Shown in pieces: positions 29,548-34,609 of a stretch of 64,000 nucleotides of DNA (position 1 is the first letter of the stretch; each line of letters starts with the position of its first letter). The notes under the pieces are model-generated. The model saw only the letters and a program-made list of their open reading frames with translations, was not told the DNA's origin and searched no databases. The DNA is from an uncultured Vicinamibacterales bacterium (GTDB taxonomy: Bacteria > Acidobacteriota > Vicinamibacteria > Vicinamibacterales > UBA8438): the NCBI GenBank assembly GCA_958295905.1, contig OY282382.1, positions 4,384,910-4,448,909 on the forward strand, written 5' to 3'. Position numbers and translations under genes: made by a program.

Positions 29548-31557
29548 ATGATACTGCCACTGCACACGGACCTGCGCCGCGCCATCGCATCGGCCCTGGG
29601 CACACTCTACGGCCTCGCGCCGGACGCGATGCCCCCGATCGTGATCGAGTACCCGCCGAACCGGCGGATGGGCGACCTCGCCGTCACCGTCGCCTTCGAC
29701 CTCGCCCGCACCCTCCGGAAAGCGCCCCGCCTGATCGCGGCGGAGATCGCCGCGGCGGCGACCGGCCCCGCCGGCCTCGGGCGTCTCGAGGCGACCGGGA
29801 CCGGTTATCTCAACCTGTTCCTCGATCGCCCCCGCTTCGCCCGTGCCCGCATCGGCGGGGACCCGCCGGCCGCCGCTGCCGGGGACGCGGCGAAGACCAT
29901 CGTCGAGCACACCGCCATCAACCCGAACAAGGCGGCCCACATCGGGCATCTGCGCAACGCCGCCCTCGGCGACACGCTGTGCCGGCTGCTGCGCTTCCGG
30001 GGGGCCGACGTTGAGGTGCAGAACTACATCGACGACACCGGCGTGCAGGTGGCCGACGTGGTGGTCGGGCTGCGGGAGCTCGAGAAGAAGGACGTCGACG
30101 ACGTGCGCCGGCTCGCGGAGGAACCCCGGTTCGACGACTACTGCTGGAACCTCTATGCGCGGGTGACGCGGTGGTACGAGGAGGACGACGCGCGGCTGTC
30201 GCACCGCCGGGACGCCCTGCACGACCTCGAGCGCGACGCGGACTCCACCGCGGCAATGGCCCGCGTGGTGACCGACAGCATCGTGCGCTGCCACCTGCGG
30301 ACGATGGCGCGGCTCGGGATCGAGTACGACCTGCTGAGCTGGGAGGGCGACATCCTGAGGCTGGCGTTCTGGGACCGCGCCTTCGAGATTCTCAAGGCCT
30401 CGGGCGCCGTCCGCCTCCAGGCCGACGGCCGGCTCGCCGGCTGCTGGGTGATGCCGATCGACGAGCCCGGCGAGGCCGAGGCGCCGTCGGACGCCGACGG
30501 CGGCGACCCCGACGCGGACGCCCGCCTCAAGGTCATCGTGCGGTCGAACGGCACCGTGACCTACGTCGGCAAGGACATCGCCTATCAGCTCTGGAAGTTC
30601 GGCCTGCTGGGACGAGACTTCCACTACCGGCGGTTCGACGCCCAGCCCTCGGGCCGCCCCCTCTGGACCACGTCGAGCGCCGCCGCCCCGGACGGCGGCG
30701 GCCCCACCGCCCCGTTCGGCCGCGCCGCCGCCGTCTACAACATCATCGACACCCGCCAGAGCTATCTGCAGCGGCTGCTGGTTCAGGCGCTCGTGGCGCT
30801 GGACCATCCGGCGGAGGCGGAGCGCTCCGTCCATTTCTCGTACGAGATGGTGGCGCTGTCCCGCAACACCGCCGCGGCTCTCGGCCACGCCGCCTCGGCC
30901 GACGACGGCAAGCCGTTCGTCGAGGTGTCCGGCCGCAAGGGGCTCGGGGTGAAGGCGGACGACCTGCTCGACCAAGTGACGGAACGGGCGCAGCAGGAGG
31001 TCGCGGCCCGACACCCCGACCTCCCCGCCGTCGAGCAGCGGCGCACCGCCGAGATCATCGCGGCCGCGGCCGTCCGCTACTTCATGATCAAGTTCTCGCG
31101 CGGCAAGGTCATCGCCTTCGACATCGACGAGGCCCTCAGCTTCGAGGGGGAGACCGGGCCGTACCTCCAGTACGCCACCGTCCGCGCCCGCAAGATCCTG
31201 CAGAAGTTGCGGGACCGGCACGGCCTCGAGACCGCGGACATCCTCGAGGGCTTGGCGGCCGCGCCGGACGCCCCTCTCGCGGGTCCCGCCGGCGACGAGC
31301 TCTGGGGCCTCGTCCTCGAGGCGGCGCGGCTGGACGAGATAGCCGATCAGGCGGTGCGGACGCTCGAGCTGTCGGTGCTCGCCAAGTACGCGTTCGCGCT
31401 CGCCCAGCGCTTCAACGGCTTCTACCACAGCAGCCCGGTGGTGGCGGAGCCCGACGAGGCGGTCCGGCGCTGGCGCGCAGCCGGGGTCGCCTGGTTCGAG
31501 GCGCAGATGACGAGGGCCCTCGCGCTGATGGGATGCGAAGCGCCGGACCGCATGTAG
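29548..31557 (+). CDS. argS: Arginyl-tRNA synthetase
   Basis: Class I synthetase, 669 residues. N-terminal Add1 domain (1-100), then NPNKAAHIGHLRNAALGD with the HIGH motif, catalytic domain, and DALR anticodon domain at the end (TLELSVLAKYAFALAQRFNGFYH). The KMSKS loop is replaced by SGRKGLGVKADDLLD, a variation usual for ArgRS. An acidic low-complexity insertion (residues about 310-325, APSDADGGDPDADA) and another near 380 are extra. The last ten codons are duplicated downstream. Confidence 0.95.
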   Translation: MILPLHTDLRRAIASALGTLYGLAPDAMPPIVIEYPPNRRMGDLAVTVAFDLARTLRKAPRLIAAEIAAAATGPAGLGRLEATGTGYLNLFLDRPRFARARIGGDPPAAAAGDAAKTIVEHTAINPNKAAHIGHLRNAALGDTLCRLLRFRGADVEVQNYIDDTGVQVADVVVGLRELEKKDVDDVRRLAEEPRFDDYCWNLYARVTRWYEEDDARLSHRRDALHDLERDADSTAAMARVVTDSIVRCHLRTMARLGIEYDLLSWEGDILRLAFWDRAFEILKASGAVRLQADGRLAGCWVMPIDEPGEAEAPSDADGGDPDADARLKVIVRSNGTVTYVGKDIAYQLWKFGLLGRDFHYRRFDAQPSGRPLWTTSSAAAPDGGGPTAPFGRAAAVYNIIDTRQSYLQRLLVQALVALDHPAEAERSVHFSYEMVALSRNTAAALGHAASADDGKPFVEVSGRKGLGVKADDLLDQVTERAQQEVAARHPDLPAVEQRRTAEIIAAAAVRYFMIKFSRGKVIAFDIDEALSFEGETGPYLQYATVRARKILQKLRDRHGLETADILEGLAAAPDAPLAGPAGDELWGLVLEAARLDEIADQAVRTLELSVLAKYAFALAQRFNGFYHSSPVVAEPDEAVRRWRAAGVAWFEAQMTRALALMGCEAPDRM

Positions 31558-31617
31558 GCCCTCGACGGCGTCATCGTGCGCGGACTGATGGGATGCGAGG
31601 TGCCGGACCGCCTGTAG
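31525..31617. repeat. Direct repeat of the argS 3' end
   Basis: The last 33 bases of argS (31525-31557, encoding LMGCEAPDRM and TAG) recur at 31585-31617 with three changes, encoding LMGCEVPDRL and TAG. The offset is 60 bases, so both copies are in the same frame; 27 unrelated bases lie between them. Confidence 0.9.
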
Positions 31618-31750
31618 TCAAGGTCCGCGCCGCTACCCGCCGGGCAGATTGGAAACGGAGCAAAGTGGTCCGATTCCGTCCCGCGCTTGGCCCGGCGGGA
31701 TTCCGTCGAGTGTCCGGCGGACCAAGGTCAGCTCGCGAGAATCAAGGCCG

Positions 31751-31811
31751 GGAGTCTGCGCCGTAGAACGACGCGGACTCCTGGAGGGTTGGTTGGGCGG
31801 TGAGCGGAGCC
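31751..31811 (-). repeat. REP-like palindromic element after argS
   Basis: Inverted relative to the element at 16156-16220. Hairpin arms GGAGTCTGCGCCGT and ACGACGCGGACTCC (two mismatches) around AGA at 31751-31781, then GGTTGGGCGGTGAGCGGAGC(C) to 31811. It ends 11 bases before the stop codon of the minus-strand DUF488 gene, between two convergent genes, and could act as a two-way terminator. Confidence 0.85.
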
Positions 31812-31821
31812 GGGCTGGCCC

Positions 31822-32262
31822 TCACCGTCCAAGATGCGTAACGTGTAGGCCGCCCCAGCGCCGGTCCAGGTACTCGACCACGAGGCGGCGATGGCAAAGG
31901 TCGGGCGCATCCTCGCTGCACAGCAGGCAGCCGTCCGCGACCGTCTCCCTCGCGACCGTCTGATCGACGCGACGTTCCCGCATGAGATCGAGGAACCGGG
32001 TTTCGTAGGCGCTCCAGTCGCCGCGGTGCTTCTTGTAGTCGTCCAGCATCTCCTTCGTGGGCGCCAGCGCCGGTACGTGCACGTAGTCCATGCCGCAGAT
32101 TTCGGCGAGAAAAAAGCTCAGGTCGTCGCGCTTGGCGAAGCCGGCGAGCTGCGACACGTTGTTGAGCCGAACATCCACGATGCGGCGCGCACCGGACGTC
32201 CGCAGGAGTTCGAAGAACCGACGGGCGGACTTCTTCGTGAAACCGATGGTGAAGACCCTCAT
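31822..32262 (-). CDS. DUF488 family protein (short form)
   Basis: 146 residues. DUF488 hallmarks: MRVFTIGFTKKSARRFFELL at the start, VDVRLNNVSQLAGFAKRDDL, and the Cys/His end LLCSEDAPDLCHRRLVVEYL. Biochemical role unknown; conserved Cys and His suggest a metal or nucleophilic site. ATG 32262 overlaps the stop of the upstream DUF488 gene, so two diverged family members are co-translated. Confidence 0.88.
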   Translation of the reverse strand: MRVFTIGFTKKSARRFFELLRTSGARRIVDVRLNNVSQLAGFAKRDDLSFFLAEICGMDYVHVPALAPTKEMLDDYKKHRGDWSAYETRFLDLMRERRVDQTVARETVADGCLLCSEDAPDLCHRRLVVEYLDRRWGGLHVTHLGR

Positions 32263-32918
32263 GGATGCAACTCGCCGCTGCGCCGGCCGGGTGGCGTCGA
32301 GTCGTTGGCCTGTGTCTTGTTCCGGTGCGCAAATCGATGGGCCTGCCGGGCGACGGCCTCCGTGATCCGCTCAGCGGGGGATCGGGGGAACAGGCGTTGA
32401 TCCTCGTTCGAGTCCTGTAGGCCATGCAGGGCCAAAAGCCGCTCCATGGCGTCCGAATGGCGCTCCAGTCCTCCGTGTGAACAGACGTGCGCGACCGAAA
32501 CGCTTCGTGCCTCGAGGGCCGGCGCCACAAGCAGGCAGCGGTGGCACTCCAGCGGTTCTCTCTCCGCGCACATCAGCGCAATGCGGTGGCCGGCCGCACC
32601 CCGCTCTACGCGGTCCAGTCCTTTCTCGAACGCGCGGGTCCGGCCCAATCGCTCGTAGCTGATGCGGCCGTCGTCGTAGACGGCTGGATCCTCCGAGCGA
32701 CCGCCCAACTCCCGCCCGAGGAAGACGTACGCGATACCGCGCGCGTCGAGGCTGCCCACCAGCGTCTCTCGGTTGAACTGCGGATTGAAGCGGCTGTAGG
32801 GCGCCGCGCGGACATCCGCCACCGCGGTCACCCCATGGCGCCGCAACAGATCGAGGAATCCTTCTACGGGGTGCGTGGAGTGACCTATCGTCAGCACCAT
32901 GGTACCGGCTGCAGGCAT
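32259..32918 (-). CDS. DUF488 family protein (long form)
   Basis: 219 residues. VLTIGHSTHPVEGFLDLLRRHGV, VADVRAAPYSRFNPQFNRETL, YVFLGRELGGR and LMCAEREPLECHRCLLVAPAL are classic DUF488 motifs. The C-terminal 60 residues are a polar extension (DQRLFPRSPAERITEAVARQ). It is followed with a four-base overlap by a second, shorter DUF488 gene, and preceded by a broken gene. Confidence 0.88.
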   Translation of the reverse strand: MPAAGTMVLTIGHSTHPVEGFLDLLRRHGVTAVADVRAAPYSRFNPQFNRETLVGSLDARGIAYVFLGRELGGRSEDPAVYDDGRISYERLGRTRAFEKGLDRVERGAAGHRIALMCAEREPLECHRCLLVAPALEARSVSVAHVCSHGGLERHSDAMERLLALHGLQDSNEDQRLFPRSPAERITEAVARQAHRFAHRNKTQANDSTPPGRRSGELHP

Positions 32919-32927
32919 GATCTGTCG

Positions 32928-33190
32928 TCAGGTCGCAGGAATGATGGCGGCGATCAGCTTGTAGCACGCGTCCTGGTACGGTTCGCCCAGGCTGATCGTG
33001 AGGTAACACTCCTCGATGTCGAAACCGCCCCTGTACTCGCCGCTTGCTGTTGCCGAAGGCTGCACCGGGCGTGCACGCCATGAGCCGAAGCCGTTCGACG
33101 TTGAGCAGCCGCAACGAAGCGGTGCGCGCCGGTCGCCGCCCCACCCGCACTTGAGCGATTCGAGGCCGGCGAACCACCGCCGCTGGTACC
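32928..33190 (-). pseudogene. 3' remnant of a probable dual-OB-domain gene
   Basis: The minus-strand end reads ECYLTISLGEPYQDACYKLI AAIIPAT before TGA 32928, which resembles the C terminus of dual-OB proteins often found beside DUF488 genes. Just upstream, in a different frame, LLNVERLRLMACTPGAAFGN and SKRRVQGRF look like the middle of the same protein. So the gene has lost its 5' part and carries a frameshift. Family assignment is from memory of the motif and is uncertain; the break is clear. Confidence 0.5.
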
Positions 33191-33280
33191 CGTCGAGGAG
33201 GCTGGCGCGGCCGGCGCCGGCCGCCCGGCGACCTTGAGCGCCCTCGTGCGCGAGGGCGGCCCCCAGCCGGGGCAACGGCG

Positions 33281-34609
33281 TCACCGCGCTTCTCTCGACC
33301 CCCGGTCGAGGGCGACCACCGTCTCGATGTGCGGCGTGTTCGGAAACAGGTCGAACGCCCGGACCTCGCCGATACGGTAGCCGGACGATCGCAGCGCGCG
33401 CAGGTCCCGCGCCTGGGTGGCGACGTCGCAGGAGACGTGGACGATGCGCCGGGGCCGGCGGCGCGCGAGCCGGGTGACGACCTCGCGCGAGAGGCCGGTC
33501 CGCGGGGGGTCCACGATGACCGTGGCGCCGGACAGCTTCCCGGCGCGTTTGAGCCAAGTCTCGACCGGCGCCCGGACGATACGCAGGTCGGGCGCCAGCG
33601 GCGCCGCATTGGCGGCGAGGTCGCCGGCGCTGACCGGATCGCGCTCGACCGCGGTCACCCGGCCGCCTCCGCGCGCCGCTATCGCGACCGCGAACAGCCC
33701 GACCCCCGCATACAGGTCCACGACCTCGCCGACGCCGGCCAGCTCGGCCACCGCCGCGGCCAGCGCCGGCACGAGATGGCGATTCGCCTGGAAGAAAGCG
33801 GTGGCGTGCCGGCGCAGAAAGAGGGTCGCGGCCCGGGGCGACGGCAGGAACTTCGCCAGGGGGTCGGTGACGAACGGCGACCCCAGGACCCGCGGCGGCC
33901 CCGGAAGCGTCCGCGACGCCACCGACAGGCCGGATACCCCCGCCGCCGCGGCCAGCGCCTCCCACCGCACGCCGGTTTCCGCGACGCCGCCCTGCACGGC
34001 CAGATGCAGTGCGGCGTGATCGCCGGGAAGGTCCTCGGCCAGCTCGACGGTGCGGACGCCGCCCGCCAGCAGGGCGGGAGCCTGGGCGTTCAACGCGGCG
34101 ACGACCCGCTCGGCGCCCGGGGACAGCACGCCGGTGCCGGCGACGGCACAGACATGATGCGAGCCCTCCTCGAGAAACCCGACCCGGTCGTTCCCGGCGT
34201 GCAAGCGGGCGCGCATGCGGTAGCCGGTTTCCGGCGAGCCGGCGACCGCCGGGGGCGCGTCGAGATCGATGCGCCCGATCCGGCGAAAGGCGTCCCGCAC
34301 CATCTCCGCCTTCAGGACGAGCTGCCGCGGGTACGCGACATGGGCCAGCGTCCGGCCCCCGCAGGACGCCGGGGCGGCCGTCGAGCGCCGATCCGGCGAC
34401 GGATGCGCGACCTCGACGGTGCGGGCGAAAACAACGTCACGGCGGGTCCGTTCGACGACGGCCCGCACCCGCTCGCCGGGAATGGCCCCGGCCACCAGGA
34501 CCACCCGTCCCGCCCACCGCGCGATCATCCGGCCGCCGACCGCCGGCCGCTCGACGGTCAGGTCGATTTGGTCAGCCCCGCGGGAACCGGTCAAATCCAA
34601 AGGATCCAT
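33281..34609 (-). CDS. RlmD/TrmA-like uracil-5-methyltransferase
   Basis: SAM-dependent RNA m5U methylase, 442 residues. N-terminal TRAM-like domain (about 12-70), central domain, then SAM motif VVDLYAGVGLFAVAIA, IVDPPRTGLSREV, catalytic Cys in HVSCDVATQARDL and the end FDLFPNTPHIETV. The Fe-S segment that normally reads CGGC is SCGGRTLAHVAYPRQL here, and other cluster Cys are missing, so the cluster is probably lost. Target (23S rRNA or tRNA) cannot be told. Confidence 0.88.
   Translation of the reverse strand: MDPLDLTGSRGADQIDLTVERPAVGGRMIARWAGRVVLVAGAIPGERVRAVVERTRRDVVFARTVEVAHPSPDRRSTAAPASCGGRTLAHVAYPRQLVLKAEMVRDAFRRIGRIDLDAPPAVAGSPETGYRMRARLHAGNDRVGFLEEGSHHVCAVAGTGVLSPGAERVVAALNAQAPALLAGGVRTVELAEDLPGDHAALHLAVQGGVAETGVRWEALAAAAGVSGLSVASRTLPGPPRVLGSPFVTDPLAKFLPSPRAATLFLRRHATAFFQANRHLVPALAAAVAELAGVGEVVDLYAGVGLFAVAIAARGGGRVTAVERDPVSAGDLAANAAPLAPDLRIVRAPVETWLKRAGKLSGATVIVDPPRTGLSREVVTRLARRRPRRIVHVSCDVATQARDLRALRSSGYRIGEVRAFDLFPNTPHIETVVALDRGSREAR

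Follow-up and report, generated by a model that had tools for sequence, protein, structure and literature searches.

A probable horizontally acquired, partly deleted copy of the candidate defence system PDC-M45 in an uncultured Vicinamibacterales bacterium

We analysed a stretch of 64,000 nucleotides (the window) and find that one locus in it is very probably a horizontally acquired, partly deleted copy of PDC-M45, a candidate defence system catalogued in PADLOC-DB 2.0. The catalogued trio comprises PDC-M45A (DuOB), PDC-M45B (DUF488-A) and PDC-M45C (DUF488-B), and the intact trio of related genomes matched it too. The locus and its flanks contain the following features:

29548-31557, plus strand: flanking open reading frame, which from its sequence we take to be argS; 82-84% identical over the part present in the same-genus genome G001, and 61-66% in genus g2
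31775-31808, plus strand: copy of a G-rich 34-bp dispersed repeat, between argS and DUF488-B
31822-32262, minus strand: DUF488-B (PDC-M45C), open, 146 aa; PF04343 1.8e-22, PF22751 1.2e-10, PDC-M45C 4.8e-73
32259-32918, minus strand: DUF488-A (PDC-M45B), open, 219 aa; PF04343 6.3e-25, PDC-M45B 2.2e-78
32928-33123, minus strand: what is left of DuOB (PDC-M45A), a collinear pair of pieces whose reading frames differ; identified by tblastn and DNA alignment with intact relatives and by PADLOC, with Pfam below its cut-off
33281-34609, minus strand: flanking open reading frame of 23S rRNA methyltransferase type, presumably rumA-like, co-directional with the cassette; orthologues at 81% and 77% in two same-genus genomes

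The initial annotation described two diverged DUF488 genes with a four-base overlap, and this description holds: both minus-strand frames exceed the curated PF04343 (DUF488) cut-off of 22.2 bits (88.6 bits for DUF488-A, 80.6 for DUF488-B), they overlap by 4 nt, and their mutual identity is 29%. PF22751 (DUF488-N3a) places DUF488-B above its curated 27-bit cut-off (42.1 bits) and DUF488-A below it (13.7 bits). Both proteins carry a C-x-E-x2-P-x2-C-H-R motif, CAEREPLECHR from residue 117 of DUF488-A and CSEDAPDLCHR from residue 115 of DUF488-B, which is retained in all sequences used (37/37 A and 32/32 B). A genome-wide search revealed no DUF488 match beyond this pair, a search of a phage collection with the window DUF488-B gave no match, and NCBIfam held no useful match for either protein or for the DuOB remnant. 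An Rfam scan of 31400-33400 found nothing, and a scan of 31500-33600 for promoter- and terminator-like sites came up empty, a result compatible with expression as well as with its lack.

Upstream of DUF488-A, and before the methyltransferase-type gene, lie two pieces corresponding to the later half of DuOB, at 67-74% identity to intact relatives (28/38 and 26/39 identities with the intact DuOB of G012, 28/40 and 29/40 with that of G023); beyond these pieces the alignment continues weakly to about 33215. When aligned as DNA with its intact counterparts, the gene lacks ~105 codons at its start and has an internal gap of 83 alignment columns, a deletion of ~83 nt that is not a multiple of 3 and so shifts the frame, as expected of the frameshifted and truncated upstream gene reported earlier. 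The dual-OB identity proposed for this gene also stands, both from the alignments with intact relatives and from the PDC-M45A model, which matches the two pieces with consecutive parts of its 230 positions (126-173, 3.1e-6; 193-224, 2.4e-8). Pfam DuOB (PF22557) taken alone scores 22.2 bits (1.6e-4) on the remnant, below its curated cut-off of 27 bits, and 221-228 bits on the intact g2 and g6 relatives. Whole-genome searching found no second DuOB match in this genome, and none in 14 control genomes either.

The window genes thus resemble PDC-M45 in the strong matches of PDC-M45B and PDC-M45C, in their order and in the match of the remnant to PDC-M45A, but differ in that PDC-M45A is broken and no defence gene lies alongside. 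Because PDC-M45A is present only in frameshifted, truncated form, with no other copy in the genome, we file the locus as a PDC-M45 remnant rather than a complete member. The trio had been catalogued before, and the window copy adds a broken example; the initial annotation, which called the cassette's function unknown, is only half right on this point, since PADLOC already lists the trio as candidate defence. The “defence” label reflects catalogue status and neighbouring genes, and PDC-M45 remains a candidate system. The abbreviation PDC is expanded as phage-defence candidate or as putative defence candidate, and the term appears with “guilt-by-embedding” discovery in PMC12988326, where most PDCs are described as being without experimental proof. 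PDC-M45 goes unmentioned in the accessible portions of PMC12988326 and PMC13356809, and in those of PMC12704722, PMC9674854 and PMC11687729 any reference to DUF488, or to a name like it, is incidental. Our literature search found no experiment on PDC-M45 and no paper on a DuOB-DUF488 cassette.

Association of DuOB with DUF488 is regular across genomes. Searching with a DuOB alignment retrieved 36 loci in named genomes across many phyla; as retrieval used DuOB alone, DUF488 neighbours were not built into the counts. At least 1.5 kb of downstream sequence was required, which kept 33 of the 36 (L085, L086 and L088, where the contig ends 0-229 bp from DuOB, were dropped). DUF488-A directly follows DuOB in 30/33 loci (exceptions L064, L068 and L090), and both DUF488 genes follow in 26/33, DUF488-B being missing also in L062, L071, L072 and L089. 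The chance background for such adjacency is low, as only 32/60 related genomes have any DUF488 match. Plasmids agree: among 14 DuOB plasmid records, seven were examined for gene order, and in all seven a DUF488 gene adjoins DuOB, three with the A-B pair and four with a B-type DUF488 ahead of a DUF4326 gene. These results confirm the statement in the initial annotation that DUF488 and dual-OB genes co-occur in cassettes. The enterobacterial and Acinetobacter plasmid cassettes of the DuOB-DUF488-DUF4326 type share with PDC-M45 an initial DuOB followed by a PDC-M45C-type DUF488, but DUF4326 takes the place of DUF488-A.

DuOB is patchily distributed, occurring in 7/60 related genomes and in 6/297 genomes of a phylum-wide draw, the genome studied here being counted in both. 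The DuOB proteins of L060-L083 are ~60-70% identical across Acidobacteriota, Latescibacterota, Gemmatimonadota, Proteobacteria, Spirochaetota and Chloroflexota, many from uncultured MAGs; this cross-phylum similarity suggests wide exchange of the cassette, perhaps within a shared habitat. A gene of SLFN_AlbA_2/HATPase_c_4 type, its domains named on the G012 copy, stands directly upstream in 18/36 loci (partial in one, L090). We did not count it as a core part, since it was not annotated beside DuOB on the plasmids examined and its family has 8-23 matches per genome in the seven genomes searched. L064 and L068, both from Latescibacterota, have DuOB with this upstream gene and no DUF488 in the available sequence.

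A survey of neighbours found intact cassettes beside BREX genes and, on plasmids, in the vicinity of CBASS or of type III CRISPR genes. In the same family, G012 has pglZ, brxD and brxHI beside its intact cassette, and G023 has a brxC/pglY gene on the same stretch as its own; such BREX type 2-like loci are nevertheless absent from the window, and the three PglZ matches in its genome all lie far from the cassette. An Agrobacterium plasmid cassette has a CBASS cyclase and a HORMA gene nearby, an Allochromatium plasmid cassette lies among cas1, csx16, csm6 and cmr5 (type III CRISPR), and the L072 cassette is preceded by a type I methyltransferase gene. The window cassette itself has housekeeping flanks and no adjoining defence gene.

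The intact DuOB protein of L060, modelled from a 26-row alignment (pLDDT 90), has two mostly beta halves. In Foldseek the top-ranking match was CST in complex with telomeric single-stranded DNA (E 8.2e-4), and a second structure comparison likened the first half to telomere-end, RPA and SSB OB folds and the second half to BrxL, with an RPA70 match spanning both halves (Z 5.8, 166 residues) and no match as high as Z 8. DuOB is predicted to consist of two OB folds resembling single-stranded-DNA-binding proteins, in keeping with the “perhaps nucleic-acid related” role suggested earlier. For the window DUF488-B (28 rows, pLDDT 91), Foldseek returned no match at E 0.001; the second comparison returned CobF (Z 8.3), diphthine synthase (7.0), SsoPTP (6.7) and PRL-1 (6.4), nearly all structure matches falling at Z < 8, a range that the tool labels as possibly a common arrangement. 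No convincing hit among solved structures came from sequence searches with the profiles of DuOB (best E 0.59), DUF488-A (0.016) or DUF488-B (0.56). In the DUF488-B model C115 closes a strand and H124-R125 open the next helix. Cysteine phosphatases have the same loop placement, with the cysteine at the strand end and the next helix after it.

The rhodanese-phosphatase superfamily offers a parallel: DUF488 has a conserved cysteine loop in conflict-type cassettes and fold matches to PTP and diphthine-synthase-type proteins, but its assignment to the superfamily here rests on middling structure scores and predicted models. This superfamily and conflict systems are reportedly treated, DUF488 included, by Burroughs and Aravind in 2023. 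The related DUF4326 clade is placed in the rhodanese-phosphatase superfamily, and its proposed targets are the phosphates linked to ribose in ADP-ribose products (PMC9503650). Judging from folds, motifs and neighbourhoods, DuOB in an intact system would grip single-stranded nucleic acid and recruit the two DUF488 enzymes, whose C-x-E-x2-P-x2-C-H-R loop, placed like that of cysteine phosphatases, would be the active element; the nucleic acid acted on would be invading or damaged, and the putative substrates its phosphate or ribose ends, or adducts that it carries. With DuOB gone, the window system is most likely no longer functional as a three-part defence, and read-through of the upstream gene may still supply its two DUF488 enzymes, unless these are themselves in the course of being lost.

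DUF488 genes of these types also occur without DuOB. In G229 a PDC-M45B/C pair follows a DarG-like macro-domain gene in the place of DuOB. The window DUF488-B matches 136 of 72,556 plasmid records, of which 11 were opened for their neighbours. In seven of these 11 the DUF488-B-type gene has no DuOB next to it and is surrounded by genes related to excision repair and formaldehyde (uvrB, uvrA, frmR, fghA, and hydroxymethylglutathione or formaldehyde dehydrogenase); two more have DuOB-DUF488-DUF4326 cassettes and two have other neighbours. The loci are:

L141:7160-9196: DarG-like macro-domain gene of G229, in DuOB's place before the DUF488-A/-B pair (macro-domain match 5.5e-52)
L144:5001-7784, L145:5001-7734, L148:3101-15072, L150:7001-10261, L153, L154 and L155: solo PDC-M45C-type loci on plasmids

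Hosts of the solo genes are Aeromonas, Comamonas, Kosakonia, Klebsiella and Acinetobacter, and the six genes tested score 1.7e-64 to 1e-70 against PDC-M45C. The uvrA-DUF488-frmR stretch is at least 80% covered in 76 plasmid records, many of them near-identical and so not 76 independent cases. In a tree the Acinetobacter pittii copy groups with the DUF4326-type cassettes, apart from an Aeromonas-Comamonas-Kosakonia group, and a single clade of four solo copies is rejected (AU p ~1e-59, a difference inflated by the exclusion of a nested Shinella row from the forced clade). Because the tree rejects one clade for these copies, B-type genes appear to have entered uvrA/formaldehyde clusters at least twice, or one to have replaced another. 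Literature searches found no paper tying DUF488 to formaldehyde beyond incidental mention, and only unrelated material on frmR/uvrA plasmid formaldehyde clusters.

The initial annotation saw a decaying cassette in which the DUF488 genes stay intact. That the cassette is broken is clear, but selective keeping of DUF488 is not borne out. Compared with the g2 copies, dN/dS is 0.22-0.26 for DUF488-A and 0.11-0.17 for DUF488-B, and that of the 65 surviving DuOB codons is 0.20-0.37 (bootstrap limits 0.09-0.81). In a long-dead gene dN/dS would approach 1; as the surviving DuOB codons stay below this value, the loss of DuOB looks recent, and after a recent loss the DUF488 frames should be open whether or not they are being kept. 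At other loci losses run in both directions, for which reason we rejected a general retention of DUF488 after DuOB loss: G001, L092 and L093 combine a broken DuOB with two open DUF488 genes, and DUF488 is lost or broken with DuOB open in L062, L071, L072 and L089 (no DUF488-B), in L064 and L068 (neither gene) and in G106 (L049), which has a stop codon within DUF488-B.

These data bear on whether the two DUF488 genes function as a unit by themselves, independent of DuOB and kept for a job of their own such as the repair of damaged nucleic acid, a reading that we consider possible although rather unlikely. It would fit the open frames of both genes with all alignment-invariant residues, their low dN/dS, the G229 pair that sits with a DarG-like macro-domain gene, and the plasmid B-type genes that stand alone beside uvrA/uvrB and formaldehyde genes. 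The DuOB pieces have a similar dN/dS within wide limits, however, open frames may mean only that the loss was recent, and the loci just named have lost or broken DUF488 next to an open DuOB.

The window site also differs from its counterparts in the genus. G001 has 235 bp between argS and the methyltransferase gene and no cassette there; the G002 contig begins at the end of argS, and the ~690 bp that it has at this place likewise lack one. Both genomes have their own copies at another place, and these are also damaged: in G001 DuOB is split by a frameshift (possibly an error in this 550-contig assembly), and in G002 an upstream gene is fused into DuOB, DUF488-A is absent and DUF488-B is reduced to its final 45 residues. 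In a tree of the joined DUF488-A and -B sequences the window copy falls among those of three g2 genomes and a single g6 genome; an AU test rejects a sister grouping of window and G001 (p = 0.00092; 37 rows, quick method). The 37-row tree retained the DUF488-A row of L082, with two stop codons near the end read as gaps, and one row with a partial last codon. Third-position GC is 0.78 and 0.84 in the two DUF488 genes versus 0.95 in argS, with the same contrast for the g2 copies. The empty G001 gap, the rejection of the G001 grouping despite the closer argS, and the GC contrast lead us to conclude that the cassette was in all probability acquired horizontally, and that the start of DuOB and anything upstream were then deleted. 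Alternatively, the cassette could be ancestral to the genus at this site and have been lost from G001 and G002, making transfer unnecessary; losses are indeed frequent in the genus, G002 keeping part of DuOB and a DUF488-B end at its other site, but we find this improbable, as each of these genomes has its own copy at another site and the tree analysis rejected a sister relationship between the window copy and that of G001. It is less probable by far that the cassette is really intact and the DuOB damage an assembly error, since, common as long-read frameshift errors are and despite the frameshift in the 550-contig G001 assembly, ~105 codons at the start of the gene and an internal stretch of ~83 nt are missing altogether, the next gene starts only 66-158 bp past the remnant, and the genome is in 3 contigs.

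Two repeats were observed beside the cassette. The G-rich 34-bp repeat has, with at most 3 mismatches, 63 copies in this genome and 2 in G012, while two genomes of the same genus hold 11 and 17, and its reversed pattern has 0 copies; several copies are in tandem, ~83 bp apart. The last 33 bases of argS (31525-31557) are repeated 60 bp on, at 31585-31617, with 91% identity, a duplication that is not visible after argS in G001. We rejected it as an integration scar, as it does not flank the cassette.

Returning to the probably acquired and partly deleted PDC-M45 copy, we note that the window locus alone is one decayed copy of a catalogued candidate system, illustrating a cassette that moves between genera and breaks, and its value is mainly as a lead. 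DUF488 contexts without DuOB may matter more than the locus itself, and two of them hint at a role, one being the company of excision-repair and formaldehyde genes and the other that of a gene resembling an antitoxin of DNA ADP-ribosylation. As a speculative and so far unlikely proposal, PDC-M45C-type DUF488 could act generally on DNA ends that are damaged or carry adducts, and be borrowed by DuOB cassettes directed at foreign DNA, by a DarG-like macro-domain cassette and, as a lone gene, by formaldehyde-tolerance clusters (uvrA/uvrB, frmR), in which case the orphan pair in the window may still be a repair unit; if this were true, formaldehyde-type DNA damage would offer a handle for finding DUF488 chemistry. 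Should these contexts be borne out, they would open the way to a direct biochemical assay for DUF488, a family present in many bacteria and archaea.
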